50,490 bases of DNA from an uncultured Acidobacteriia bacterium (GCA_903882645.1 CAIRXZ010000064.1:1-50490); one strand, 5' to 3'. Shown: positions 26,949 to 41,797, counted from the stretch's first letter. Made by a program: numbers and translations. The notes: generated from the letters alone by a model not told the origin.

Positions 26949-27013
26949 CCTCGCGGCCGCTTGGGCGCCGGCGATGCGGGGATTGTCGGAAAGTGCCCGC
27001 CGCACCCGAGAGC

Positions 27014-29368
27014 CTACAAATACTTCTGCACGCGCTCGCGGAAGCGGGTGTAGATCCACGAGACGCCGACCAGGATCAATCCCAGCGCGATGAACGAGAG
27101 AATGCGCGGCAGGGTGTCCAGGAAGCTCAGGTCGTAGACGAACAGCTTCAGAATGCAGAACAGCAGCAGCGCGAGGCCGGAGAGCCGCATCACGCGATCG
27201 CGCAGCGGAAAACCGGCGCCCAGAAGACCGAGGCCCTCAAGGCCCCACGCCACGGTCAGCACGCTGCCCGAGATTCTGTAATAGAGCAGGCCGGTCAGGA
27301 GCGCGGTCGCGAGCACCGAATAGTAGAGGCGCTCTTTCCGGCCGCGCGTGCTCAGCAGTTGCGCGGTATAGAAACAGGCGATTGCGAGGGCCGCGGCCAG
27401 CATGGTCTGGTGCGACCAGAAGTTGACCGCCCAGCAGCAGGCGAAGGCCGCCGCCGCGAGCGCGTAGGCCTGCCAGCGCAACGCTTGCCGCTCGATCCGC
27501 GGGGCCATGGCGGCGAGCAGCAAGGCTTCCGCCGCCCATGCCGGACCGGCCCAGGCGTGCGGCAGTACGGCGCGCAGCAGGATTGCCGCAAGCGCAGCGC
27601 CGGCCGTCGAGGCGATATCGAACAGCGTGGAGCGTTCCGATTCGAGGAACCGGTCCTCGGCCGACCAGAGCGCGCACAGCGCCGCGGCACAGCTCACCGC
27701 GGCGCCAATGGCGATCGAAAGGGGCGGGTGCGGCATGGTAAACAACGTACCCGCCGCCGCCAGACTCGCGAGCAGATACCCCTGGCGCCGGAAATCCGCC
27801 AACCGCCGCCACCACCCCACGAAGAATGGCCCGGCCGCCAGGAGGAACCACACCCGGCCGCACTCTCGCGCGGGCGCTTGGTGGCCCGCGATCAGAGCCG
27901 CCACCGCCGCCGCGGCGTACCCATAGAACGTATCGGCGGCGCGCATCGCACGGTTGGCATAGAAAACCAGCGCGGTGAGCGCGGCTGCGGGCGTCCACGC
28001 GGACACGGGAAGATCCGTCACTTCGACCGCGGTCAAGTGGACGAGTTCCAGCGCGAACAGCGGCACGGCCAACAGGCGCAGATATTTCGCGCGGAAGCGC
28101 AGGCCGCACAGGTGGAACAACTCGGCCTCGGCGAGAAGCGCAACCAGCAGCCACTGGTGGTCCAGGCGCCGGAAGATGGCCGCGGCAGCCAGCGCCGCGG
28201 TCAGAGTGGCTGGCGCGTGCCACGCTCCCGAGAGAAGCTCGGCGTCCGGATGCAGGCGCGCGCGCAATGCTCCGCTTATGGCATAGGCGATCGCGGCCAC
28301 GGCAAGAAACGCCCACAGGCGGCCGGGATCGGCGGCGTTCCATTTCAACAACGAGAACGAGAGGAAGCCCGCCGCGTTCAGAGGCATCAGCCACGGTATA
28401 GGGTCCAGAATCTCGAAGCCCTCAAACAGCAGCCAATAGACGGCGAAGACCGCCTGGGACGACCACAGCGGCGCGCTGGGATCGCCGCGCAACCCGCAAA
28501 CGGCATAAGTGGCGACGACCCCGAACAGGGGCAGCGTCCGCCAGCGAAAGCGGCGCGCGATATACAACAACGAAGCGGCCAGCGGGACCAGCGCCACCAC
28601 GGAGAGCGGCGTGACCTGGGTGATTGCCAACGCGGCAAAAGCGCTGAAGTAAGCCACCCCCGCGACGGCCTCGGAGCGGTATCGCAAGGCGTGCGCGATC
28701 ATCCCCACGGCCACCGCGATCAACAAAACGGCGCCCGCGACCGGACTGTGGATCACCTTGGCCGCGTCGAGCGCCTGCATGGCATAGACCGTGAAGTAGA
28801 GAGCCGCCCATCCGCCGCCGATCAAGCCGCGCGCGAAGGTCTGGTAGCGCGGGCGGCGTTCGTAGAAGATGCCGGCACCCAGCATCGCCGTTCCGGCAAC
28901 CAAGCCAATGGCGTCACGCCCCGCCGGACCCATGTGGCTGAACGAGTAACCGAGCGCCAAGGCGATGCCCACCACCAGGACGAACGCGCCAATCTTGTTC
29001 AGCCAGTTGCCGCCGAGCAAGGTCTCCCATTCGGCGCTCGACCGGCGCCCGGAAACCGGGACCGCGGTGAACGCCGGAGCGGGCGGCCAGTGAGGCGGGA
29101 CTTCCAGCCCGGCTTGTTCGGGTTCGGCGGACGGCGTGGAGGGAGCCTCAATCGGCGCCGGAAGCTGCGAAGCAACAGACTGGCAGGCGAAAGCGCCTGC
29201 CCCACCCTGTGAGGGCGGCGGCGCCGCGGGCGGGATGGCAACTTCGGCTGCGGGACGTCCGCGCTGGGCCGCAGCCGCGTCTTCGAGGGTCCAGATTCGC
29301 TTCGTGATCTCGGCGATCCGCCGGTCGATTGCGTCGAAGCGGGCGAGAATATCGGATTCGGTCATCAT
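27014..29368 (-). CDS. DUF2339 multi-pass membrane protein
   Basis: A 784-residue protein with a soluble start and more than twenty predicted membrane segments, matching DUF2339. The first ~45 residues form an amphipathic coiled coil (DSILARFDAIDRRIAEITKR). A Pro/Ala linker follows to about residue 120, then hydrophobic helices fill the rest (e.g. 'IGAFVLVVGIALALGYSF'). Function is unknown; the family is often described as envelope-associated. Oddity: the linker contains 'GGAGAFACQ', which is the translation of a copy of the palindrome at 29182-29201. It is the last gene of a minus-strand pair with the acyltransferase, 13 bases away. Confidence 0.85.
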   Translation of the reverse strand: MMTESDILARFDAIDRRIAEITKRIWTLEDAAAAQRGRPAAEVAIPPAAPPPSQGGAGAFACQSVASQLPAPIEAPSTPSAEPEQAGLEVPPHWPPAPAFTAVPVSGRRSSAEWETLLGGNWLNKIGAFVLVVGIALALGYSFSHMGPAGRDAIGLVAGTAMLGAGIFYERRPRYQTFARGLIGGGWAALYFTVYAMQALDAAKVIHSPVAGAVLLIAVAVGMIAHALRYRSEAVAGVAYFSAFAALAITQVTPLSVVALVPLAASLLYIARRFRWRTLPLFGVVATYAVCGLRGDPSAPLWSSQAVFAVYWLLFEGFEILDPIPWLMPLNAAGFLSFSLLKWNAADPGRLWAFLAVAAIAYAISGALRARLHPDAELLSGAWHAPATLTAALAAAAIFRRLDHQWLLVALLAEAELFHLCGLRFRAKYLRLLAVPLFALELVHLTAVEVTDLPVSAWTPAAALTALVFYANRAMRAADTFYGYAAAAVAALIAGHQAPARECGRVWFLLAAGPFFVGWWRRLADFRRQGYLLASLAAAGTLFTMPHPPLSIAIGAAVSCAAALCALWSAEDRFLESERSTLFDIASTAGAALAAILLRAVLPHAWAGPAWAAEALLLAAMAPRIERQALRWQAYALAAAAFACCWAVNFWSHQTMLAAALAIACFYTAQLLSTRGRKERLYYSVLATALLTGLLYYRISGSVLTVAWGLEGLGLLGAGFPLRDRVMRLSGLALLLFCILKLFVYDLSFLDTLPRILSFIALGLILVGVSWIYTRFRERVQKYL
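29182..29201. repeat. Palindromic repeat inside the DUF2339 gene
   Basis: GGCAGGCGAAAGCGCCTGCC is a perfect 8-bp hairpin with an AAAG loop, identical to the left arm of the nested element at 23464-23543. It lies in the low-complexity linker of the protein. Confidence 0.7.
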
Positions 29369-34416: not shown

Positions 34417-34499
34417 AGTCGGCCGGGGAATAACCAGTTCAATCGCCGCCGGCGGGTCCAATGCCTAGTATCGCGACCGTGAGGAAAGGTGCGATTTCT

Positions 34500-34587
34500 G
34501 TGGGGCAGGATGGTATCCTGCGCGGCGATTGGCAATCGCCGCGCGTGCCGGTTGCCAACCGGCACGCAGCTTGCCAAGCTGCCCCAC
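34500..34587. repeat. Array of four consecutive perfect hairpins with three-base loops, bounded by inverted ends
   Basis: GTGGGGCAG (34500-34508) and CTGCCCCAC (34579-34587) are exact inverted ends. Between and overlapping them are four perfect hairpins: GCAGGAT-GGT-ATCCTGC (34505-34521); a 10-bp stem around GGC (34521-34543); GCGTGCCGGTT-GCC-AACCGGCACGC (34543-34567); and GCAGCTT-GCC-AAGCTGC (34566-34582). The element lies between the activator and the GH31 gene; apart from it 34417-34697 shows nothing. Confidence 0.85.
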
Positions 34588-34697
34588 AAACGAACCCTTT
34601 CAAGCGGTCAGAGACCTGGTCCACCCCGAGCCGGCCGAAAAGCGCAACTGGACTCCGGTTCGGATACGGACTACTATGCTGTCAAAGGACTCTTACT

Positions 34698-37103
34698 GTG
34701 AGCAACCGCCGTCTTTCTCTTTTTCTATGCGCCGGACTGGCGCTCATGTGGCGCTCTAGCCTGGATGCTCAAGTGGACAGGCCGCCCGGCCTGGTGAGCG
34801 ACCTGGTGGATGTGAGCGGCGATTTCCACGAATACAGGAACACCTACTTCCTGGCCGACAAACTCGCGGGCTTCGACCCGGCGAGCGGAGTCGGCGCGAT
34901 TACCTGGGCGCGCAATCAGCTTTACCCCCGGATCGCGTTCAACAACATGGAGAACGTGCTGCGGCCGTTCGAAGGCGTCACTTTCCCGGAGGGAGAATAC
35001 GCCGTCAATCAAACGCTGCCCTTCTCTATCCAATTCGTCTCGCCACGGGCGGTTCGAATCCGCATCCGGACCGGGCCGCGCGCGCGAGCCGAGGAACCCT
35101 CGCCAATGCTGGTCCGCGAGCCGCCTCGGGATGCTTCGTGGAAAATGGCGCGCATCGCCGGCGGCTACCGCTACGCGAGCGAGGCGGGTTCCGTCACGAT
35201 CCTGGAGAACCCCTGGCACATCGAGTTTCGCGACGCCCAGGGCCGCCTGCTCACCCAGACCGATCACAGTTCCGACAATGCGGCGCAGCTCGAACCGGTC
35301 CTGCCGTTCTCGTTTATCCGGCGCGCCTCCGACTATTCCCGGAGCGTCGCCGCCGTGTTCTCGCTCGCGCCGGGGGAGAAGCTGTTCGGCTGCGGGGAGA
35401 GCTTCACGCGGCTCGATAAGCGCGGCCAGAAGGTGGTCTTATGGGCGAACGACGCCAACGGCGTGGAGACCGGCCGCATGTACAAGCCGATTCCGTTCTT
35501 CATGAGCAACCGCGGCTATGGCATGTTCGTCCACACCTCGGCGCCGGCGACCTTCGATTTCGGCGCGACGTTCGGCAATACCAACGCCTTGCTGCTGGGC
35601 GACGACGAACTCGACCTGTTCGTGTTCCTGGGCGCGCCCAAGGACATCCTGAACGAATACACGACTCTGACCGGAAGGCCGCCCATGCCGCCGCTCTGGT
35701 CGTTCGGCCTGTGGATGAGCCGGATCACGTACTACTCCGAGGACGAGACGCGCGCGGTGGCCGCGAAACTGCGCGAGAACCGCGTCCCAAGCGACGTAAT
35801 CCACCTCGATACAGGCTGGTTCGAGACCGACTGGCGGTGCGATTACCAATTCTCCAAGACGCGCTTCAAAGACCCGGCGAAGATGATCGCCGACCTCAAA
35901 CGCGACGGATTCCACATCTCGCTTTGGCAGCTTCCCTACTTTGTCCCCAAGAATTCGCTGTTCCCGGAAATCGTGGCCAAGGGTCTGGCGGTCAAGGACG
36001 GCAAGGGCGGCCTGCCGTATGAGGACGCCGTGCTGGACTTCACCAACCCGGCGGCGGTCGCATGGTACCAGGAGAAGATCGCGAGTCTGCTCAAGATGGG
36101 CGTGGGCGCCATCAAAGTCGATTTCGGAGAGGCCGCGCCGCTCAACGGAATCTATGCCAACGGCCGCAGCGGATTCTACGAGCACAACCTCTATCCGCTT
36201 CGCTACAACAAGACCGTGGCGGATATCACGCGGCAGGTCACCGGCGAGAACATCATGTGGGCGCGGAGCGCATGGGCCGGCAGCCAGCGCTATCCGCTGC
36301 ACTGGGGCGGCGACTCGGGCGCGCAGGATTCCGGCATGGCTGAGACGTTGCGCGGAGGGCTTTCCCTGGGGTTGAGCGGCTTCACCTTCTGGAGTCACGA
36401 CATCGGCGGCTTCGCGGCCAAGACGCCGGAGGAGCTTTACCGGCGATGGATGCCTTTCGGAATGCTCACCTCGCACAGCCGCTGCCATGGCACGCCGCCC
36501 AAGGAGCCGTGGGAGTACAGCGCCGCATTCCTGGACGACTTCCGCCGCGCGGACGAGATGAAGTACCGGCTTATGCCCTACGTCTACGCTCAGGCCAAGG
36601 ATGCCAGCGAGCGCGGGCTCCCCATGGTGCGCGCGCTATTCATCGAGTATCCCGGCGATCCCGGCTCCTGGCAGGTGGAAGACGAGTACCTGTTCGGTTC
36701 GGATATCCTGGTGGCGCCGTTGATGGAGACGGGCATCCCGGCGCGCGACGTCTACCTGCCGCCCGGCCAATGGATCGATTACCAGAGCGGCAAGGCTTAT
36801 GCCGGCGGCTGGCACAACATCCCGGCGGGCCAGATTCCGGTGGTGATGCTGGTGCGCGAAGGCGCCGTGATTCCGCATATCAAGCTGGCACAGTCCACCG
36901 CGCAGATGGATTGGTCGAACATCGAGATGGTGGTTTTCGCCGCCAACGCGCAGAACGCGCAGGGTCTGGTCTGCCTGCCCTCGGACAATGTACTGCGCCG
37001 GGTCGAAGCCGTACGGCGCAACGGCGTTTTCGCGCTGGCGGGCGATCCGCTGGCCGGGAAGGCCGCCTCGACCGTGCGCATGTATTCGGCGGCCGCGCGG
37101 TAA
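34698..37103 (+). CDS. Glycoside hydrolase family 31 (alpha-xylosidase/alpha-glucosidase), secreted
   Basis: From a GTG at 34698 this is an 801-residue exported enzyme with a signal peptide (MSNRRLSLFLCAGLALMWRS, cleaved near SLDAQ). The frame is open further upstream, through the hairpin array, but the signal peptide and an AAAGGA nearby decide the start. It has the N-terminal GH31 beta-sandwich, then the (beta/alpha)8 barrel beginning 'PPLWSFGLWMSRITYYSEDE'. The catalytic nucleophile is D475 in KVDFGE and the acid/base is D539 in HWGGDSG. The motif set resembles YicI-type alpha-xylosidases more than maltases, so xyloglucan side chains are a plausible substrate. It pairs functionally with the CE15 enzyme as plant-polymer degradation. 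Confidence 0.93.
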   Translation: MSNRRLSLFLCAGLALMWRSSLDAQVDRPPGLVSDLVDVSGDFHEYRNTYFLADKLAGFDPASGVGAITWARNQLYPRIAFNNMENVLRPFEGVTFPEGEYAVNQTLPFSIQFVSPRAVRIRIRTGPRARAEEPSPMLVREPPRDASWKMARIAGGYRYASEAGSVTILENPWHIEFRDAQGRLLTQTDHSSDNAAQLEPVLPFSFIRRASDYSRSVAAVFSLAPGEKLFGCGESFTRLDKRGQKVVLWANDANGVETGRMYKPIPFFMSNRGYGMFVHTSAPATFDFGATFGNTNALLLGDDELDLFVFLGAPKDILNEYTTLTGRPPMPPLWSFGLWMSRITYYSEDETRAVAAKLRENRVPSDVIHLDTGWFETDWRCDYQFSKTRFKDPAKMIADLKRDGFHISLWQLPYFVPKNSLFPEIVAKGLAVKDGKGGLPYEDAVLDFTNPAAVAWYQEKIASLLKMGVGAIKVDFGEAAPLNGIYANGRSGFYEHNLYPLRYNKTVADITRQVTGENIMWARSAWAGSQRYPLHWGGDSGAQDSGMAETLRGGLSLGLSGFTFWSHDIGGFAAKTPEELYRRWMPFGMLTSHSRCHGTPPKEPWEYSAAFLDDFRRADEMKYRLMPYVYAQAKDASERGLPMVRALFIEYPGDPGSWQVEDEYLFGSDILVAPLMETGIPARDVYLPPGQWIDYQSGKAYAGGWHNIPAGQIPVVMLVREGAVIPHIKLAQSTAQMDWSNIEMVVFAANAQNAQGLVCLPSDNVLRRVEAVRRNGVFALAGDPLAGKAASTVRMYSAAAR

Positions 37104-37123
37104 GAGACTGGCCGCTTCAGACC

Positions 37124-37564
37124 CTACTTGTACCGGTACACATTCACGCGCTGGATGGCGCGCTCGGCGAACGAAAGGTGCGGTTGGGCAAAAAGCCGCA
37201 CGCCGAAGCCCGACTGGTTCGTGATTACGGCCAGGGTCGCGTGCAAGGTTCGCAAGCCCTGCCGGTCGCCGTATCGGATGATAAGACGCTCTGCCGCCGG
37301 ATAGTGGAATTCGCCAACCGCGACGAGCGCGATTGCGCCGCTTGCGACGTCATCGGGAAATCGAATACGCAGGGCGGCGGATCTTTCGCTGTCCGGATGA
37401 CCGGTGCGCGTTTTCAGCGCCAGTGCGGAGTGCAACTCAACGCCGGCAAGGCGGGAGATGACGATTCGCCGGTCCGGACCGCCAAACATGGCTGCGACTT
37501 GCTGGGAGCCTGGTTCTGGGTGATAAAGCTTAATCAGCGCGCTGGAGTCGAAGAAGTAGTTCAC
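37124..37564 (-). CDS. VapC-like PIN-domain toxin, probably inactive
   Basis: A 146-residue PIN-domain protein starting MNYFFDSSALIKLYHPEPGS. PIN ribonucleases use three or four acidic residues to bind Mg2+. The first two are present (D6 and E43), but where relatives have LDA this reads 'LRTLHATLAV' (H108), and where relatives have an ADR/ADK this reads 'LFAQPHL'. So the C-terminal metal ligands appear lost and nuclease activity is doubtful. It follows its DUF104-type antitoxin by five bases. A second, deleted copy of the same pair lies upstream (37986-38447). Confidence 0.75.
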   Translation of the reverse strand: MNYFFDSSALIKLYHPEPGSQQVAAMFGGPDRRIVISRLAGVELHSALALKTRTGHPDSERSAALRIRFPDDVASGAIALVAVGEFHYPAAERLIIRYGDRQGLRTLHATLAVITNQSGFGVRLFAQPHLSFAERAIQRVNVYRYK

Positions 37565-37569
37565 CGCTT

Positions 37570-37845
37570 TCAGAACCGCTCCTCGCGCTCCGCGATGATC
37601 GCCTCAGACCAGGAACTGGCGTCTCTTGCCGTCATTCCGCGGACCTCCTCGTGAGTGGGGATGTAGCCCGCAGCCGCGACTTCCGTGCGCGCCTGTTCCA
37701 AGAAACTCCGATCGACCAGGGACGCCAAGGAATCGCCTGAACTGCTGGAGACGGCGACCCTAACGCGCTGGTGCTCTTCCAGCGGCAGAGGTTCCAATGG
37801 CCGTAGGACGCCGTTCTCATAAACCGCGTCCACATGGTTGGTCAT
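37570..37845 (-). CDS. DUF104 / AF2212-type antitoxin
   Basis: A 91-residue protein with the family's opening, 'VDAVYENGVLRPLEPLPLEE', which folds as a small beta-barrel. The C-terminal helical tail ('FLEQARTEVAAAGYIPTHEE') probably wraps the PIN toxin encoded immediately downstream. Such pairs form VapBC-like modules in which the antitoxin both neutralises the toxin and represses the operon. It is similar in layout to the second DUF104 protein at 38175-38447. Confidence 0.82.
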   Translation of the reverse strand: MTNHVDAVYENGVLRPLEPLPLEEHQRVRVAVSSSSGDSLASLVDRSFLEQARTEVAAAGYIPTHEEVRGMTARDASSWSEAIIAEREERF

Positions 37846-37985
37846 AACGCCTCTATTTTACGCTGGTTTCGCGCCCGGGCGCCCGCTGCAACAGCACAGG
37901 GTTCGGTGGGCTCGAAGCAGTTAATGGGCGTCCTTCTCGCGCCAGCGCAGCCTCCAATTCCACCGCTCGCCCCGATCACATCCGC

Positions 37986-38172
37986 TCACCGATCGTTGCA
38001 GTGCTCCGGGTTGAGAACGGTGAAGCTTTCGAGAGCCGCAACCTCACAGAGAACCTTGTCGGCGGCCACGAATTGGTCAACCAGGCCCTGGCTTCTCAGC
38101 CGGAGCGCAACCGCAATCTGAAGGGTGATAGAGCTTCGCAAGCGCGCTGGAATCGAAGAAGTACGCCGCCAC
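37986..38172 (-). pseudogene. VapC-like PIN toxin with a large internal deletion
   Basis: On the minus strand, from a GTG at 38172 the protein begins VAAYFFDSSALAKLYHP, the exact start of a PIN toxin. From about 38124 a different frame reads 'LQIAVALRLRSQGLVDQFVA' and 'ADKVLCEVAALESFTVLNPE', the C-terminal third of the same family. About 80 residues in the middle are missing, and the join near 38120-38124 is out of frame. It follows the DUF104 antitoxin by two bases, so a complete antitoxin-toxin pair once existed here. The 37846-37985 gap shows nothing. Confidence 0.75.
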
Positions 38173-38174
38173 GT

Positions 38175-38447
38175 TCAGCGGTCCTCACGCTCAGCGATGA
38201 AGTCCGCCGTCATCGAGCCCGGAATCTTGGATAGCCTCCGACGCACCTCTTCCAGGCCGGGAGCCGCCTCAGCGCCAGCGAGTCTCCGCCGAAGACCTTG
38301 GACGAAATCCGCGTCGATCTGGCCAAGTGCGGAGCGGTCCGCCTCCTGGGTGATACTCACGACGACACGCTCATTCTCGGCCAAATCCAGAGACTGCAAG
38401 GGCTTGAGCATGCCATTCTGATACACGGCATCGACTTGCATGGGCAT
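38175..38447 (-). CDS. DUF104 / AF2212-type antitoxin with a deleted toxin
   Basis: A 90-residue protein starting MPMQVDAVYQNGMLKPLQSL, clearly a paralogue of the antitoxin at 37570-37845. The tail 'IDADFVQGLRRRLAGAEAAP' should be toxin-binding. The toxin gene next to it has an internal deletion, so this is an orphan antitoxin that might still bind the neighbouring PIN protein or DNA. The region 38448-38664 upstream shows no gene. Confidence 0.8.
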   Translation of the reverse strand: MPMQVDAVYQNGMLKPLQSLDLAENERVVVSITQEADRSALGQIDADFVQGLRRRLAGAEAAPGLEEVRRRLSKIPGSMTADFIAEREDR

Positions 38448-38664
38448 ATTCCTATTGTATGCCTTTCGCTGGCAGTCGCTCCGCGCGCTTCATCGCCTGG
38501 CTGCGGGACACCGCGCACCTGCCGTGACGGCAGAGGGTCGGGGAGCATCCAAGCCCCAATTTGCAAGGGCCGCGCGGCGTTTTCGCCGATGATTGTAGTC
38601 GGAATTGTAGACGCGCCAGCGTCGCAACAGCGTCCTTCCGATGGCCACCAATGAGTGTAAGTAA

Positions 38665-38721
38665 TTGATTTGATTGGTCGGGGCGGGGCGATTTGAACGC
38701 CCGACCCCCTGCGCCCAAGGC
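38665..38721. repeat. Copy of the tRNA-Pro 3' half (attachment-site repeat)
   Basis: Bases 38675-38721 are identical to 41721-41767, the 3' 47 bases of tRNA-Pro from the anticodon loop to CCA. Ten more bases on the left match with one difference. The similarity stops at 38722. This is the footprint left when a mobile element integrates by recombination into a tRNA 3' end. It is not a tRNA gene: the 5' half is missing. Confidence 0.88.
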
Positions 38722-38786
38722 GGTTGCCGGCATTTTGCGGAAAGGCCTTGTTTTCAGGCATTTACGTTTCAACGAGATACGGACAG

Positions 38787-38816
38787 CCTGTTGAAGCTTG
38801 TTGAGGCCTGTTGAAG
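38787..38816. repeat. Three phased 10-base direct repeats
   Basis: The unit CCTGTTGAAG occurs at 38788, and again at 38808, with CTTGTTGAGG between, giving exact 10-base phasing. Repeats of this length close to a recombination core resemble arm-type integrase sites; that reading is inference. Confidence 0.5.
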
Positions 38817-38832
38817 CCGGGGGTTTTGAGAA

Positions 38833-38852
38833 GCTACAAAATCGTCTACAGC
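38833..38852. repeat. 20-base direct repeat, left copy
   Basis: GCTACAAAATCGTCTACAGC here recurs with one change (A for G) at 41655-41674. The two copies lie just inside the two ends of the tRNA-anchored island. Confidence 0.55.
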
Positions 38853-39189
38853 GCCAGGGAACCTCCGGCTACGGGAATTGCTCGGAACCAGGCGGGAGTC
38901 GGACTTACCGAGGTTGCATCGGTCGCGAAGAAGCTGAAGGTCTTCAAAGACCGTCTCGCGTAGAGGCCGCTATAAGGGATGATGCGTGCGGACGGCGGCG
39001 GTCAACTGAAGCGAGCCGTCCGTTTGGGGTTGTCCTGTTCGCGGATTTCCGGGTACCCCTTTTCAGCGACCAGATCGTCCGCCAGCAGTTCGATGGTGTA
39101 GCGTTCGGAGATCAGGAATTCTGGCCGTGCCTCCTGTCGCCAGCAAAGTGGTATGGTGTGAGATCAGACCAAGGACAGGATCGAGCACC

Positions 39190-40125
39190 ATGTACGTTTG
39201 TCCCCTACCAAAACCGCACCATAGCAAGCTGACGGCGCTAGCCACAAACCGAAAGCTGCCCGATGTGGACAAGCCTAAAGTTCAGGAGGCGCTGGGCCGA
39301 TATGCTCATTGGGTCAAAACGATGGATGAGTTAGACCTTGAAGGGCCTGCGTTGCTGCAGCGCTTGGTTGAGTTGTTAAACGGGTACAAACGATACATTG
39401 AGGTCGATCTGATTTATGACTCAGCCGCGGATTTCTTATACCGCCAAAAGGGGCAGCATAAGGTGGACAATTCCGTGCTGGAAGAGTTCCTTCCGCGGCT
39501 TGCTGACACCCGGCTTGTCCCCGGCCTCATTCACGCCAAGAGTTGCACCGCTGGGCCGCAGAGCGCGTTTGCGGCATTCACGTTCTCTGGTACTGTGCAT
39601 ACCCTCCTTGCTGACGGTGGCATATTCATTAAGGTCAAAGACCAAGACTATGCCCTTTCTAAGCGGGTCTTTTTGAAGGCTTCAACGAACGCCGATTTCG
39701 ACGAAACGGACACGATCTCGACAGAACTGAATGTCGCGTATTTGGCCGCTGAGTGCAAGACAAACCTCGACAAAACGATGTTCAATGAGGGGCTGGAGAC
39801 GGCGCGCGCCTTGAAGCAAGCTGTCGCTGGTTCGCGTTACCTGCTCTTGTGCGAATGGCTCGATATGGGTCCGATCAACACAGCCTCAACTGATATAGAG
39901 GAGGCCATCATCCTGCGAAAGGCGAAGCGGCTGGGTTCAAACTTTCGTGAGGGGCTCGCCACAGTGGCTGGGAGAAAGACTGCCCGCGAAGCATTTGCGG
40001 CCCACTATGATTCGCACCCGTTTCGGGTCGAATGCTTCGCTCGAATCCTACAACACATGAGCAATGTATACCCCGTTCAGATTCTACTGGACGAACAAAC
40101 CGTGCTGGAGCGAGGATATTTTTAG
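39190..40125 (+). CDS. Bpu10I-family type II restriction endonuclease
   Basis: A 311-residue protein resembling Bpu10I-type endonucleases. Recognisable features are 'YKRYIEVDLIYDSAADFLYR' with 'QKGQHKVDNSVLEEFLPRL' near residues 67-104 and a later 'KVKDQDYALS' strand (148-157). The probable PD-(D/E)xK active site is in 'AYLAAECKTNLDKTM', E188-x-K190. Bpu10I itself needs two different subunits for an asymmetric site; only one subunit gene is present here, so it may work as a homodimer or on a different site. The methyltransferase starts five bases after its stop, so the pair forms an operon. The ATG at 39190 is chosen because the longer frame upstream lacks family residues. Lower GC marks it as acquired. 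Confidence 0.8.
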   Translation: MYVCPLPKPHHSKLTALATNRKLPDVDKPKVQEALGRYAHWVKTMDELDLEGPALLQRLVELLNGYKRYIEVDLIYDSAADFLYRQKGQHKVDNSVLEEFLPRLADTRLVPGLIHAKSCTAGPQSAFAAFTFSGTVHTLLADGGIFIKVKDQDYALSKRVFLKASTNADFDETDTISTELNVAYLAAECKTNLDKTMFNEGLETARALKQAVAGSRYLLLCEWLDMGPINTASTDIEEAIILRKAKRLGSNFREGLATVAGRKTAREAFAAHYDSHPFRVECFARILQHMSNVYPVQILLDEQTVLERGYF

Positions 40126-40130
40126 GGCCC

Positions 40131-41423
40131 ATGCTGAGAAGATCACCCTTTGCGGAGGTCCCGATCGACGCGGGCGAGATTCCGCAGCAGGCGTTGGACC
40201 TCGCCAATCGTACTCGGACGAACCCTTTTCCGTGGAGAGGCCAGTTCTCACCGGGACTGGTTGAGCTCCTGCTGAAGACGTATGCGAAACGCGAATTTCG
40301 GGTCCTTGATCCCTTTGCGGGCATCGGCACGACTCTGGTGGAGGCCGCTAGGAACGACCTGGCCAGCATCGGAACCGAGATTAACCCTGCGGCTGTAACC
40401 ATGGCCGGGTCCGTCATGTTCCTTCCCTTCCGTCTTGACGAACGGAAAGCAACGATTGAGCGAGTCCGTGGCCTGCTGAGGGAGAACTGCAGCGTGAACC
40501 AGCCGCTCTGGTCGGGGCCCGAGGAACAGCCCGGCTCACCCGCTGCGAGGTTGGTATCGCTGTTGGAATCCGACCAAATATCAGCACGTGAGCGCAGCTT
40601 GCTTCAGAACACCCTGATCCGTCTGCTCGAGGTCGAAAGCGAGCATATATGGGAAGACGTGTTCCGCTGCTACCGCCAGCACTGCGAAATCGTTCTTTCG
40701 CTTCCGCACTCTACCGAGGAGTGCAGAATCGAAAATGCTGACGCTCGCGCCCTGCCCGTCGGGGACTCCTCAGTGGATCTGATACTGACGTCACCGCCCT
40801 ACGTTAACGTGTTTAACTACCATCAAAACAACCGGCGGGCTATGGAACTCCTTGGCTGGGACCTTCTGGAGGTGGCCAGATCAGAATTCGGTTCCAACAG
40901 GAAAAACAGAGGGAACCGGTTCTTGACGGTGGTTCAATATTGCATTGATATGTTCACCGCGCTGCTTGAGATGAAGCGAGCGCTGAAGCCAGATGGACGC
41001 GCCATAATCGTGGTCGGTCGGGAGTCCGCAGTGCGGGGCATAGCCTTCAAGAACGGTTTGCTGGTTGGCATGCTCGCGACAGCAGCTGGTTTCCGAATTC
41101 GTACGCGCCAAGAGAGGAAGTTCAAGAACAAGTTTGGCTATATTATTTTTGAAGACATTCTTCACATCCAACCGTCCACTGACCGAGTGTCGGTGGGTAC
41201 TGGTGCTGCAACCGAAATCGCCAGCGAGGCTCTTGAAGTCGCACTCGGGGATGCCACGCAATCGGACGTCAGAGAAGACGTCAGAAACGCGATTGAGGGG
41301 GCCGATCAGGTCTTGCCCTCACCAATCTACAAAGCGCCAAGGGTCGGCGGACAGCGCGAGTGCGATTCGGCCAGTCTTGTACCCCAAAACACGGTAGGGC
41401 AGGTATGTTCCGGAATCCTCTGA
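40131..41423 (+). CDS. Site-specific DNA methyltransferase of the Bpu10I-like system
   Basis: A 430-residue amino-methyltransferase. The S-adenosylmethionine motif I is DPFAGIGTT at residues 60-68 and the catalytic motif IV is TSPPY at 220-224, followed by the frequent 'VNVFNYHQNNRRAMELLGWD'. SPPY favours N4-cytosine methylation, though N6-adenine cannot be excluded. The ~150 residues between the two motifs probably hold the target-recognition region. It should protect host DNA from the endonuclease encoded immediately upstream. The last ~60 residues (after 'EDILHIQPS') look unstructured. No controller (C) protein gene is present, which is notable for a type II system moving between hosts. 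Confidence 0.85.
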   Translation: MLRRSPFAEVPIDAGEIPQQALDLANRTRTNPFPWRGQFSPGLVELLLKTYAKREFRVLDPFAGIGTTLVEAARNDLASIGTEINPAAVTMAGSVMFLPFRLDERKATIERVRGLLRENCSVNQPLWSGPEEQPGSPAARLVSLLESDQISARERSLLQNTLIRLLEVESEHIWEDVFRCYRQHCEIVLSLPHSTEECRIENADARALPVGDSSVDLILTSPPYVNVFNYHQNNRRAMELLGWDLLEVARSEFGSNRKNRGNRFLTVVQYCIDMFTALLEMKRALKPDGRAIIVVGRESAVRGIAFKNGLLVGMLATAAGFRIRTRQERKFKNKFGYIIFEDILHIQPSTDRVSVGTGAATEIASEALEVALGDATQSDVREDVRNAIEGADQVLPSPIYKAPRVGGQRECDSASLVPQNTVGQVCSGIL

Positions 41424-41720
41424 CGTGATGAAGTTAAGGAGGGCTCGCGTAGTTCGCGAATTTGGTCTGCGGCAGAGCAGCATTTTGTTAGAGCCTTGTC
41501 GACCCGTGACGAGTGCGTGGCTACGGAATCGCCACCTCTCGACGGGAGGTCACGCACCTGCCTTTTGTGCAGGTGACCTGCTCGTGACCCACTGAAAACA
41601 CTCGTTCGGACGTCCGCGCGACGTGCCAAGCACCGCCCTTAACGAATCGCCGCGGCTACAAAATCATCTACAGCAGCTTTATTGACGCAGCCGGAAGTGG
41701 CCGTATCTGCTTGATTTTAT
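41424..41720 (+). other. Right end of the island, non-coding
   Basis: No gene is evident. CACCTGC and GCAGGTG (41561-41581) form a hairpin extended by GGT/ACC across a bulge, without a T-tract; it may be a weak terminator for the methyltransferase. The right copy of the 20-base direct repeat lies at 41655-41674. Confidence 0.4.
41655..41674. repeat. 20-base direct repeat, right copy
   Basis: GCTACAAAATCATCTACAGC, one base different from 38833-38852, 47 bases from the tRNA 3' end. Confidence 0.55.
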
Positions 41721-41797
41721 TGGTCGGGGCGGGGCGATTTGAACGCCCGACCCCCTGCGCCCAAGGCAGGTGCGCTACCAGGCTGCGCTACGCCCCG
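41721..41797 (-). tRNA. tRNA-Pro(TGG)
   Basis: A complete 77-base tRNA on the minus strand: acceptor stem CGGGGCG/CGCCCCG, D stem GCGC/GCGC, anticodon stem CCTGC/GCAGG around loop CTTGGGC (anticodon TGG), T arm GGGCG-TTCAAAT-CGCCC, discriminator A and an encoded CCA. It decodes CCA and, by wobble, CCG/CCU codons. Its 3' half is duplicated at 38675-38721, so it was the integration target of the neighbouring island, which left the tRNA sequence intact. Confidence 0.95.

Follow-up and report, generated by a model that had tools for sequence, protein, structure and literature searches.

An integrase-less restriction-modification cassette at tRNA-Pro of an uncultured Acidobacteriia bacterium, and relatives that share its ends and differ in cargo

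The island at tRNA-Pro

We analysed a 50,490-nucleotide stretch of DNA (hereafter the window) from an uncultured Acidobacteriia bacterium (GCA_903882645.1, CAIRXZ010000064.1:1-50490), in which a restriction endonuclease gene and a methyltransferase gene lie between an intact tRNA-Pro(TGG) gene and a second copy of its 3' half. An earlier note, made from the sequence alone, had described these genes as a low-GC island flanked by a 47-base repeat of the tRNA, and this description is confirmed. The boundaries and cargo of the island are as follows, with att denoting an attachment site:

38675..38721, plus strand: distal 47-nt att copy, the tRNA-Pro 3' half in antisense orientation (exact repeat of 41721-41767)
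38713..38719, plus strand: GCCCAAG, distal copy of the anticodon-loop complement; identity ends just past it
39190..40125, plus strand: cargo gene 1, Bpu10I-family restriction endonuclease, 311 aa (PF09549, RE_Bpu10I, E=1.7e-71)
40131..41423, plus strand: cargo gene 2, N4/N6 DNA methyltransferase, 430 aa (PF01555, N6_N4_Mtase, E=1.2e-15)
41721..41797, minus strand: tRNA-Pro(TGG), intact (ARAGORN)

The window holds exactly two copies of TGGTCGGGGCGGGGCGATTTGAACGCCCGACCCCCTGCGCCCAAGGC (47 nt), the tRNA-Pro 3' half, at 38675-38721 and 41721-41767, and an exact match of this length excludes a chance origin. Longer similarity around the repeat extends over 63 nt at 95% identity (38665-38727 versus 41711-41773). 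In terms of the tRNA, the repeat comprises the 3' end and the acceptor, T and variable regions, and stops just past the anticodon loop, whose seven nucleotides (CTTGGGC) appear as their complement GCCCAAG at 41759-41765. The bracketed segment measures 3.05 kb and has a GC content of 0.559, compared with 0.646 in the remaining window, where the lowest value among the 3-kb stretches sampled was not under 0.600. The island thus has a restored tRNA and the target repeat at both ends, as a tRNA integrative element does. The distal copy is presumed to be the 3' end of the original host tRNA, while the half at 41721-41767 was presumably supplied by the incoming DNA. GCCCAAG is kept even in those array copies, described below, that lack the remainder of the tRNA half, and is presumed to be the crossover or overlap region.

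The endonuclease and the methyltransferase are the only convincing genes between the copies, and no integrase gene of the island's own was found with Pfam. The PF09549 match (240.7 bits) is above the curated cut-off and covers the whole profile (1-218 of 218), and the protein also matches BbvCI subunits in the PDB. The methyltransferase carries the motifs DPFAGIGTT and TSPPYV and matches type II methyltransferase models of PADLOC. Bpu10I and BbvCI are enzymes of two different subunits. The island endonuclease is like them in being a full-length PF09549 protein that resembles BbvCI subunits; unlike them, the island combines one endonuclease gene with one N4/N6-type methyltransferase, and its genome holds a single PF09549 gene. 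We infer a defence function for the pair. Among the 237 genomes searched from the same family, no other has PF09549, which fits a recent acquisition.

Conserved ends and putative arm-type repeats

Two conserved blocks lie inside the repeat copies. The left and right blocks were aligned (A1 and A2, respectively) and converted into models (R1 and R2) that were searched against the 237 genomes of the family. The features of the two ends are:

38728..38857, plus strand: left inner end, about 130 bp (R1, 95 bits, E=5.8e-29; A1)
38834..38850, plus strand: putative bipartite arm-type site of the left end, CTACAAAATCGTCTACA, 112 nt beyond the att
41551..41720, plus strand: right arm of about 170 bp that reaches to the tRNA 3' end (R2, 128 bits, E=5.9e-39; A2)
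41555..41575, plus strand: palindrome CACCTGC-CTTTTGT-GCAGGTG in the right arm, an inverted match to the tRNA, conserved in A2
41656..41672, plus strand: putative bipartite arm-type site of the right end, CTACAAAATCATCTACA, at -65 from the tRNA 3' end

The left inner end consists of TTTTCA..TTACGTTTCAA, three spaced GTTGA(A/G) repeats and, last, a CTACA pair. The palindrome with the CTTTTGT loop in the right arm resembles the tRNA-Pro anticodon stem-loop and may imitate it. Both ends carry CTACA-N7-CTACA at fixed offsets, where we predict arm-type sites for an integrase. All 20 exact right-end cases have the motif at -64 or -65 from the tRNA end; of the 27 motifs counted in left ends, 24 lie at +112 to +114 from the att. 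Across whole genomes it occurs 25 times ahead of a tRNA-Pro 3' end, and the reversed-pattern control not once.

R1 matches 65 of the 237 genomes (42 at E<=1e-10) and R2 matches 38, while the right stretch of about 170 bp, used alone as a query, has relatives in 25 genomes and 18 of 76 genera. Models rebuilt without sequences of the window's own genome still recover its ends (left, E=2e-30; right, E=1.3e-42). In a sample of 396 genomes from the phylum, 11 have the left end (E<=1e-6). Most of the named records that contain the motif are bins of Bryobacterales and other Acidobacteria, and a few motif-bearing bins are labelled Delta- or Betaproteobacteria. The same ends are also present at tRNA-Arg(TCT), tRNA-Pro(GGG) and tRNA-Lys, where the loop sequence or tRNA fragment corresponds to the tRNA concerned. 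Among plasmids the right arm had no match; phages matched the left end only weakly and only in its tRNA part, and of 45 motif matches in IMG/VR one fits an end model, solely via the motif itself. The conserved ends and the repeated motif were not in the earlier note, which also did not mention the adjoining toxin-antitoxin genes or a partial tRNA copy, the third in this genome, both described below.

A family of compact units with exchangeable cargo

Two genomes of one genus show the site empty and filled. In G110, a host gene directly adjoins tRNA-Pro, while in G132 a segment of 1,539 bp with HicAB genes is inserted ahead of the tRNA. The two share a common flank with 79.7% identity (822 of 1,032 aligned positions) and a further 6.1 kb at 84.6%, and in G132 the G110-like flank abuts the distal 47-nt copy. 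The distal copy and the restored tRNA of G132 have different T-stems, as expected if the inserted unit carries its own tRNA half. In a different genus, G021 and G138 have the site and the ends in common, with a right flank of 90% identity over 2.7 kb, and contain unrelated cargo. The earlier note had held that the repeat around unrelated DNA, in genomes lacking these genes, would speak against its proposal; such loci exist, and we read them as a large family of cassettes in soil Acidobacteria, to which the island belongs, and not as evidence against mobility.

Twenty-nine complete cassettes of 0.9-5.6 kb were delimited, which have common ends and unrelated cargo in the order att, left end, cargo, right end, and att or tRNA; in a few of the 29, one of the two ends is unrecognised by its model. 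Tandem units occur in five genomes (G150, G028, G024, G088 and G023), and on a CRAIB_MAG101 contig units of about 1.5 kb are repeated at tRNA-Pro(CGG). In some arrays, just the anticodon-loop core is left between units. A left-end array in G023 (L197/L198, contig C68) has an alternative right end (..CCGGAGATCCACTGA) that keeps the anticodon-loop core alone.

Bins and short contigs are common in the family, so that a non-site-specific duplication or an assembly artefact might be suspected of having made the tRNA fragment. The ends, their positions and the array order are, however, common to independent genomes, the G110/G132 pair shows the site in both states, and the reversed-pattern control is zero; we consider this explanation negligible.

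According to Pfam and PADLOC, the cargo consists mostly of restriction-modification systems, retron-like or abortive systems and toxin-antitoxins. The genes recognised include Bpu10I and XhoI endonucleases, N6_N4 and D12 methylases, a GmrSD-type protein and DndB. Also present are a UG19-type reverse transcriptase (PADLOC DRT) accompanied by a TIR protein of the CAP12/Pycsar type, a TOTE primase-helicase and 4TM effector domains. HicAB, PIN/AF2212, HepT with a nucleotidyltransferase, and Gp49 occur as well, and other cargo is metabolic or transport-related (alpha-amylase, ABC permease, TonB). The earlier reading of the island as minimal, with att repeats of its own but no integrase, holds and applies well outside this locus: in dozens of genomes, other cargo lies between the same ends. 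The further suggestion of a compact carrier for type II systems stands as to the carrier; it is not specific to type II systems, since the restriction-modification pair is one cargo among many.

Proposed mobilisation in trans

No intact PF00589 (tyrosine recombinase) was found in the 29 complete cassettes, the sole assigned match being a fragment (L226). As the cassettes have no integrase of their own, an enzyme of another element would have to move them. These bacteria commonly carry integrases at tRNA 3' ends, and in 31 of 33 tRNA elements with an integrase a 5-mer recurs with a 12-bp period before the tRNA, mostly at about -60 to -82 (shuffled controls average 3.9, with a maximum of 10; other periods give 3-9). 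These 5-mers, which are presumed arm-type repeats, vary by integrase clade (TCACA, CCACA, CTACA and others). The CTACA repeat of the cassettes has the same position and the same 12-bp period, and because of this match the cassettes appear to be substrates of this superfamily of tRNA-targeting tyrosine integrases.

Segment 38675-41720 is, in our view, likely to be an integrative cassette of the non-autonomous kind, which would carry a complete attP and depend for its mobilisation on a tRNA-targeting integrase acting in trans. The attP would be split over both ends, comprising the right arm, the 47-nt tRNA half with its anticodon-loop crossover, and the left arm. A tyrosine integrase supplied by a resident or incoming element would bind the CTACA-N7-CTACA arm repeats and recombine the circular cassette into the tRNA-Pro anticodon loop, whereupon the incoming 3' half would restore the tRNA and the old half would be displaced to the far end. 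As the displaced half would act as a further site, cassettes would pile up in tandem. The circular intermediate, the helper and any current activity are what we infer.

The tandem arrays could also point to a host-resident, integron-like system, in which a chromosomally fixed recombinase uses tRNA-Pro as an array platform. The arrays are indeed anchored at tRNA genes and made of integrase-free cassettes of a single gene to a few genes, and internal copies can retain only the anticodon-loop core. Nine cassette-rich genomes, however, lack a recombinase gene beside the arrays: their PF00589 matches lie on other contigs, except on one cassette contig, where a match lies about 20 kb away. Moreover, several different tRNAs are served by the same ends, which better suits free attPs than one platform. 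We regard a host-resident system as very improbable.

Alternatively, the cassettes may be decayed remnants, in the manner of cis-mobilizable elements (CIMEs), of an integrative and conjugative element (ICE), a phage or an integrative and mobilizable element (IME) that lost its own integrase and everything but cargo and att ends, and that would no longer move except by chance accretion with a new element. Integrase loss with retention of attL and attR is a documented CIME scenario (PMC5704250). The tRNA-Pro site of the cassettes is also used by integrases of these bacteria, which stand in tandem with cassettes (G199, G075), L226 contains a truncated integrase gene, and some ends are missing. 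On the other side, neither the family loci examined nor a GTDB scan for the CTACA motif yielded a full-length ancestor with these ends, as against 29 compact copies, although a parent outside these collections is possible. Both ends are conserved at fixed positions across many genera, a constancy not expected under free decay, and they are shared by cassettes at Pro, Arg and Lys tRNAs. Decay as the general explanation thus seems unlikely to us.

Several points weigh against a mobile cassette moved by a helper. The empty-site comparison proposed in the earlier note succeeded within the family for G110 and G132, whereas the search for the window's own locus yielded no syntenic genome with an empty site. 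An integrase-bearing element with matching ends was likewise not found, and the CTACA-using integrases, which are closest by motif, sit at tRNA-Arg (L341) and tRNA-Asn (L361/L364). The earlier note had also suggested a search of the whole genome for a tyrosine recombinase with a matching core; the CTACA motif is present at none of the integrase loci examined there, and no cognate helper was identified among them. Neither an excised circle nor movement was observed, and most of the data come from metagenome bins with short contigs. For many left ends, contig breaks or decay leave no right end within 8 kb, so that some of the cassettes may be relics that no longer move. The toxin-antitoxin segment next to the island, described below, has no recognisable left end.

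Further candidates were considered and rejected. G003, of the same genus, does not serve as an empty site for the window, its flanks being non-syntenic beyond the tRNA. The tRNA-Pro-adjoining integrases of G026, G090 and G007 carry TCACA-type repeats, and the one in G109 (C248) lacks the expected kind of repeat, so that none of the four qualified as a cognate helper. The truncated integrase of L226 does not make it an autonomous member, as Pfam covers just positions 2-70 of 172. At L223 (G199:C821), one tRNA-Pro att holds both a cassette and, in tandem with it, a full-length P4-type integrase element; this integrase belongs to the neighbouring element and not to the cassette. The direct repeat of 12-bp period seen in 31 of the 33 integrase-bearing elements (L338-L387 and L404 of the family genomes) is possibly a general arm-site signature of this integrase group.

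Comparison with known systems

Integration of tRNA genomic islands is catalysed by tyrosine integrases, usually the island's own, whereas the cassette unit contains no integrase. The cassettes resemble the tRNA islands of the Islander catalogue (PMC4383910) in that their ends are marked by a regenerated tRNA and a displaced fragment, and would share the tyrosine integrase chemistry. Tycheposons are also cargo elements bordering tRNA genes; these measure 4-200 kb and have a xerD-type recombinase (as described in PMC10872708), whereas the cassettes are smaller and without a recombinase, the island of the window being 3.05 kb.

CIMEs are defined as decayed ICEs or IMEs at a given locus (PMC5704250). 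The island resembles them in having attL and attR without integration or transfer genes, and tandem accretion at a tRNA 3' end is common to both. Unlike CIMEs, the cassettes are widespread units of 0.9-5.6 kb with arm sites at fixed positions and interchangeable cargo. The ssrA islands of Dehalococcoides are likewise arranged in tandem and bounded by repeats of the 3' end of an RNA gene, and some, lacking an integration module, were proposed to be mobilised with their neighbours (PMC3146451). They differ in having a serine recombinase (DsiB), tmRNA as the target, a 20-bp repeat and reductive dehalogenase cargo, in contrast to the tRNA anticodon loops, putative tyrosine-type arm sites and defence or toxin-antitoxin cargo of the cassettes. 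Dif modules of Acinetobacter plasmids are compact, integrase-less, serial and flanked by recombinase sites, often with toxin-antitoxin or accessory genes (PMC13141974, PMC6449649); they rely on pdif sites and host XerC/D, are mostly plasmid-borne and have no tRNA target, whereas the cassettes are flanked by tRNA halves and arms. The idea of integrase-less integrated units is thus known from CIMEs, ssrA islands and dif modules. For a widespread family with fixed-position attP arms, tRNA-loop targeting and defence-rich cargo, we found no description in the open-access literature, although one may exist elsewhere.

Neighbouring and other features

Directly beyond the distal att copy lies a toxin-antitoxin segment:

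37104..38674, no strand assigned: probable decayed neighbouring cassette, ending in the right-end-like TAAGTAATTGATTTGAT (PF01850/PF01954)
37124-37564, minus strand: PIN gene (PF01850/PF01954)
37570-37845 and 38175-38447, minus strand: two AF2212-like genes (PF01850/PF01954)

The segment has 94% DNA identity to the cargo just inside the left end of L289 and 88-96% to an array locus of G023, and homologues of its PIN gene occur in further cassettes. As it resembles cassette cargo and has a right-end-like terminus, the window probably contains two cassettes, one of them decayed.

The third, partial tRNA copy lies on another contig of the own genome (C42:917-964), preceded by about 170 bp resembling window positions 41553-41720. 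At this locus (L035, G000:C42), a minus-strand VapC-like PIN open reading frame (ORF) at 888-1388 runs through the partial tRNA att, its final codons deriving from antisense tRNA sequence. A second left end of the own genome is found at a contig end (L237, G000:C320:23761-23851) and is possibly the counterpart of the C42 right end. Elsewhere in the window, ARAGORN calls a 95-nt tRNA-Ala(ggc) at 34496-34590, which overlaps the start of an 880-aa ORF (34461-37103) and is probably false or unusual, and positions 27001-29000 show a strong AT skew (about 0.35) across 2 kb, without GC skew.

Implications

The two ends are specific enough for automatic cassette finding, and the cargo between them could therefore guide the search for new defence systems. 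The arm motif and its position predict the clade of the acting integrase, which makes the helper testable. We tentatively propose, as a possibility short of an even chance, a new cassette system in Acidobacteriota that would be functionally parallel to integrons: a large pool of gene cassettes without integrases, each of which would bring a ready attP fitted to the anticodon loop of a tRNA. Shared integrases acting in trans would capture the cassettes one behind another at tRNA genes, and the pool would hold defence and toxin-antitoxin genes in reserve. It has long been asked by what means small restriction-modification and toxin-antitoxin pairs travel when they have no transposase or integrase, and such cassettes would be a vehicle for them.

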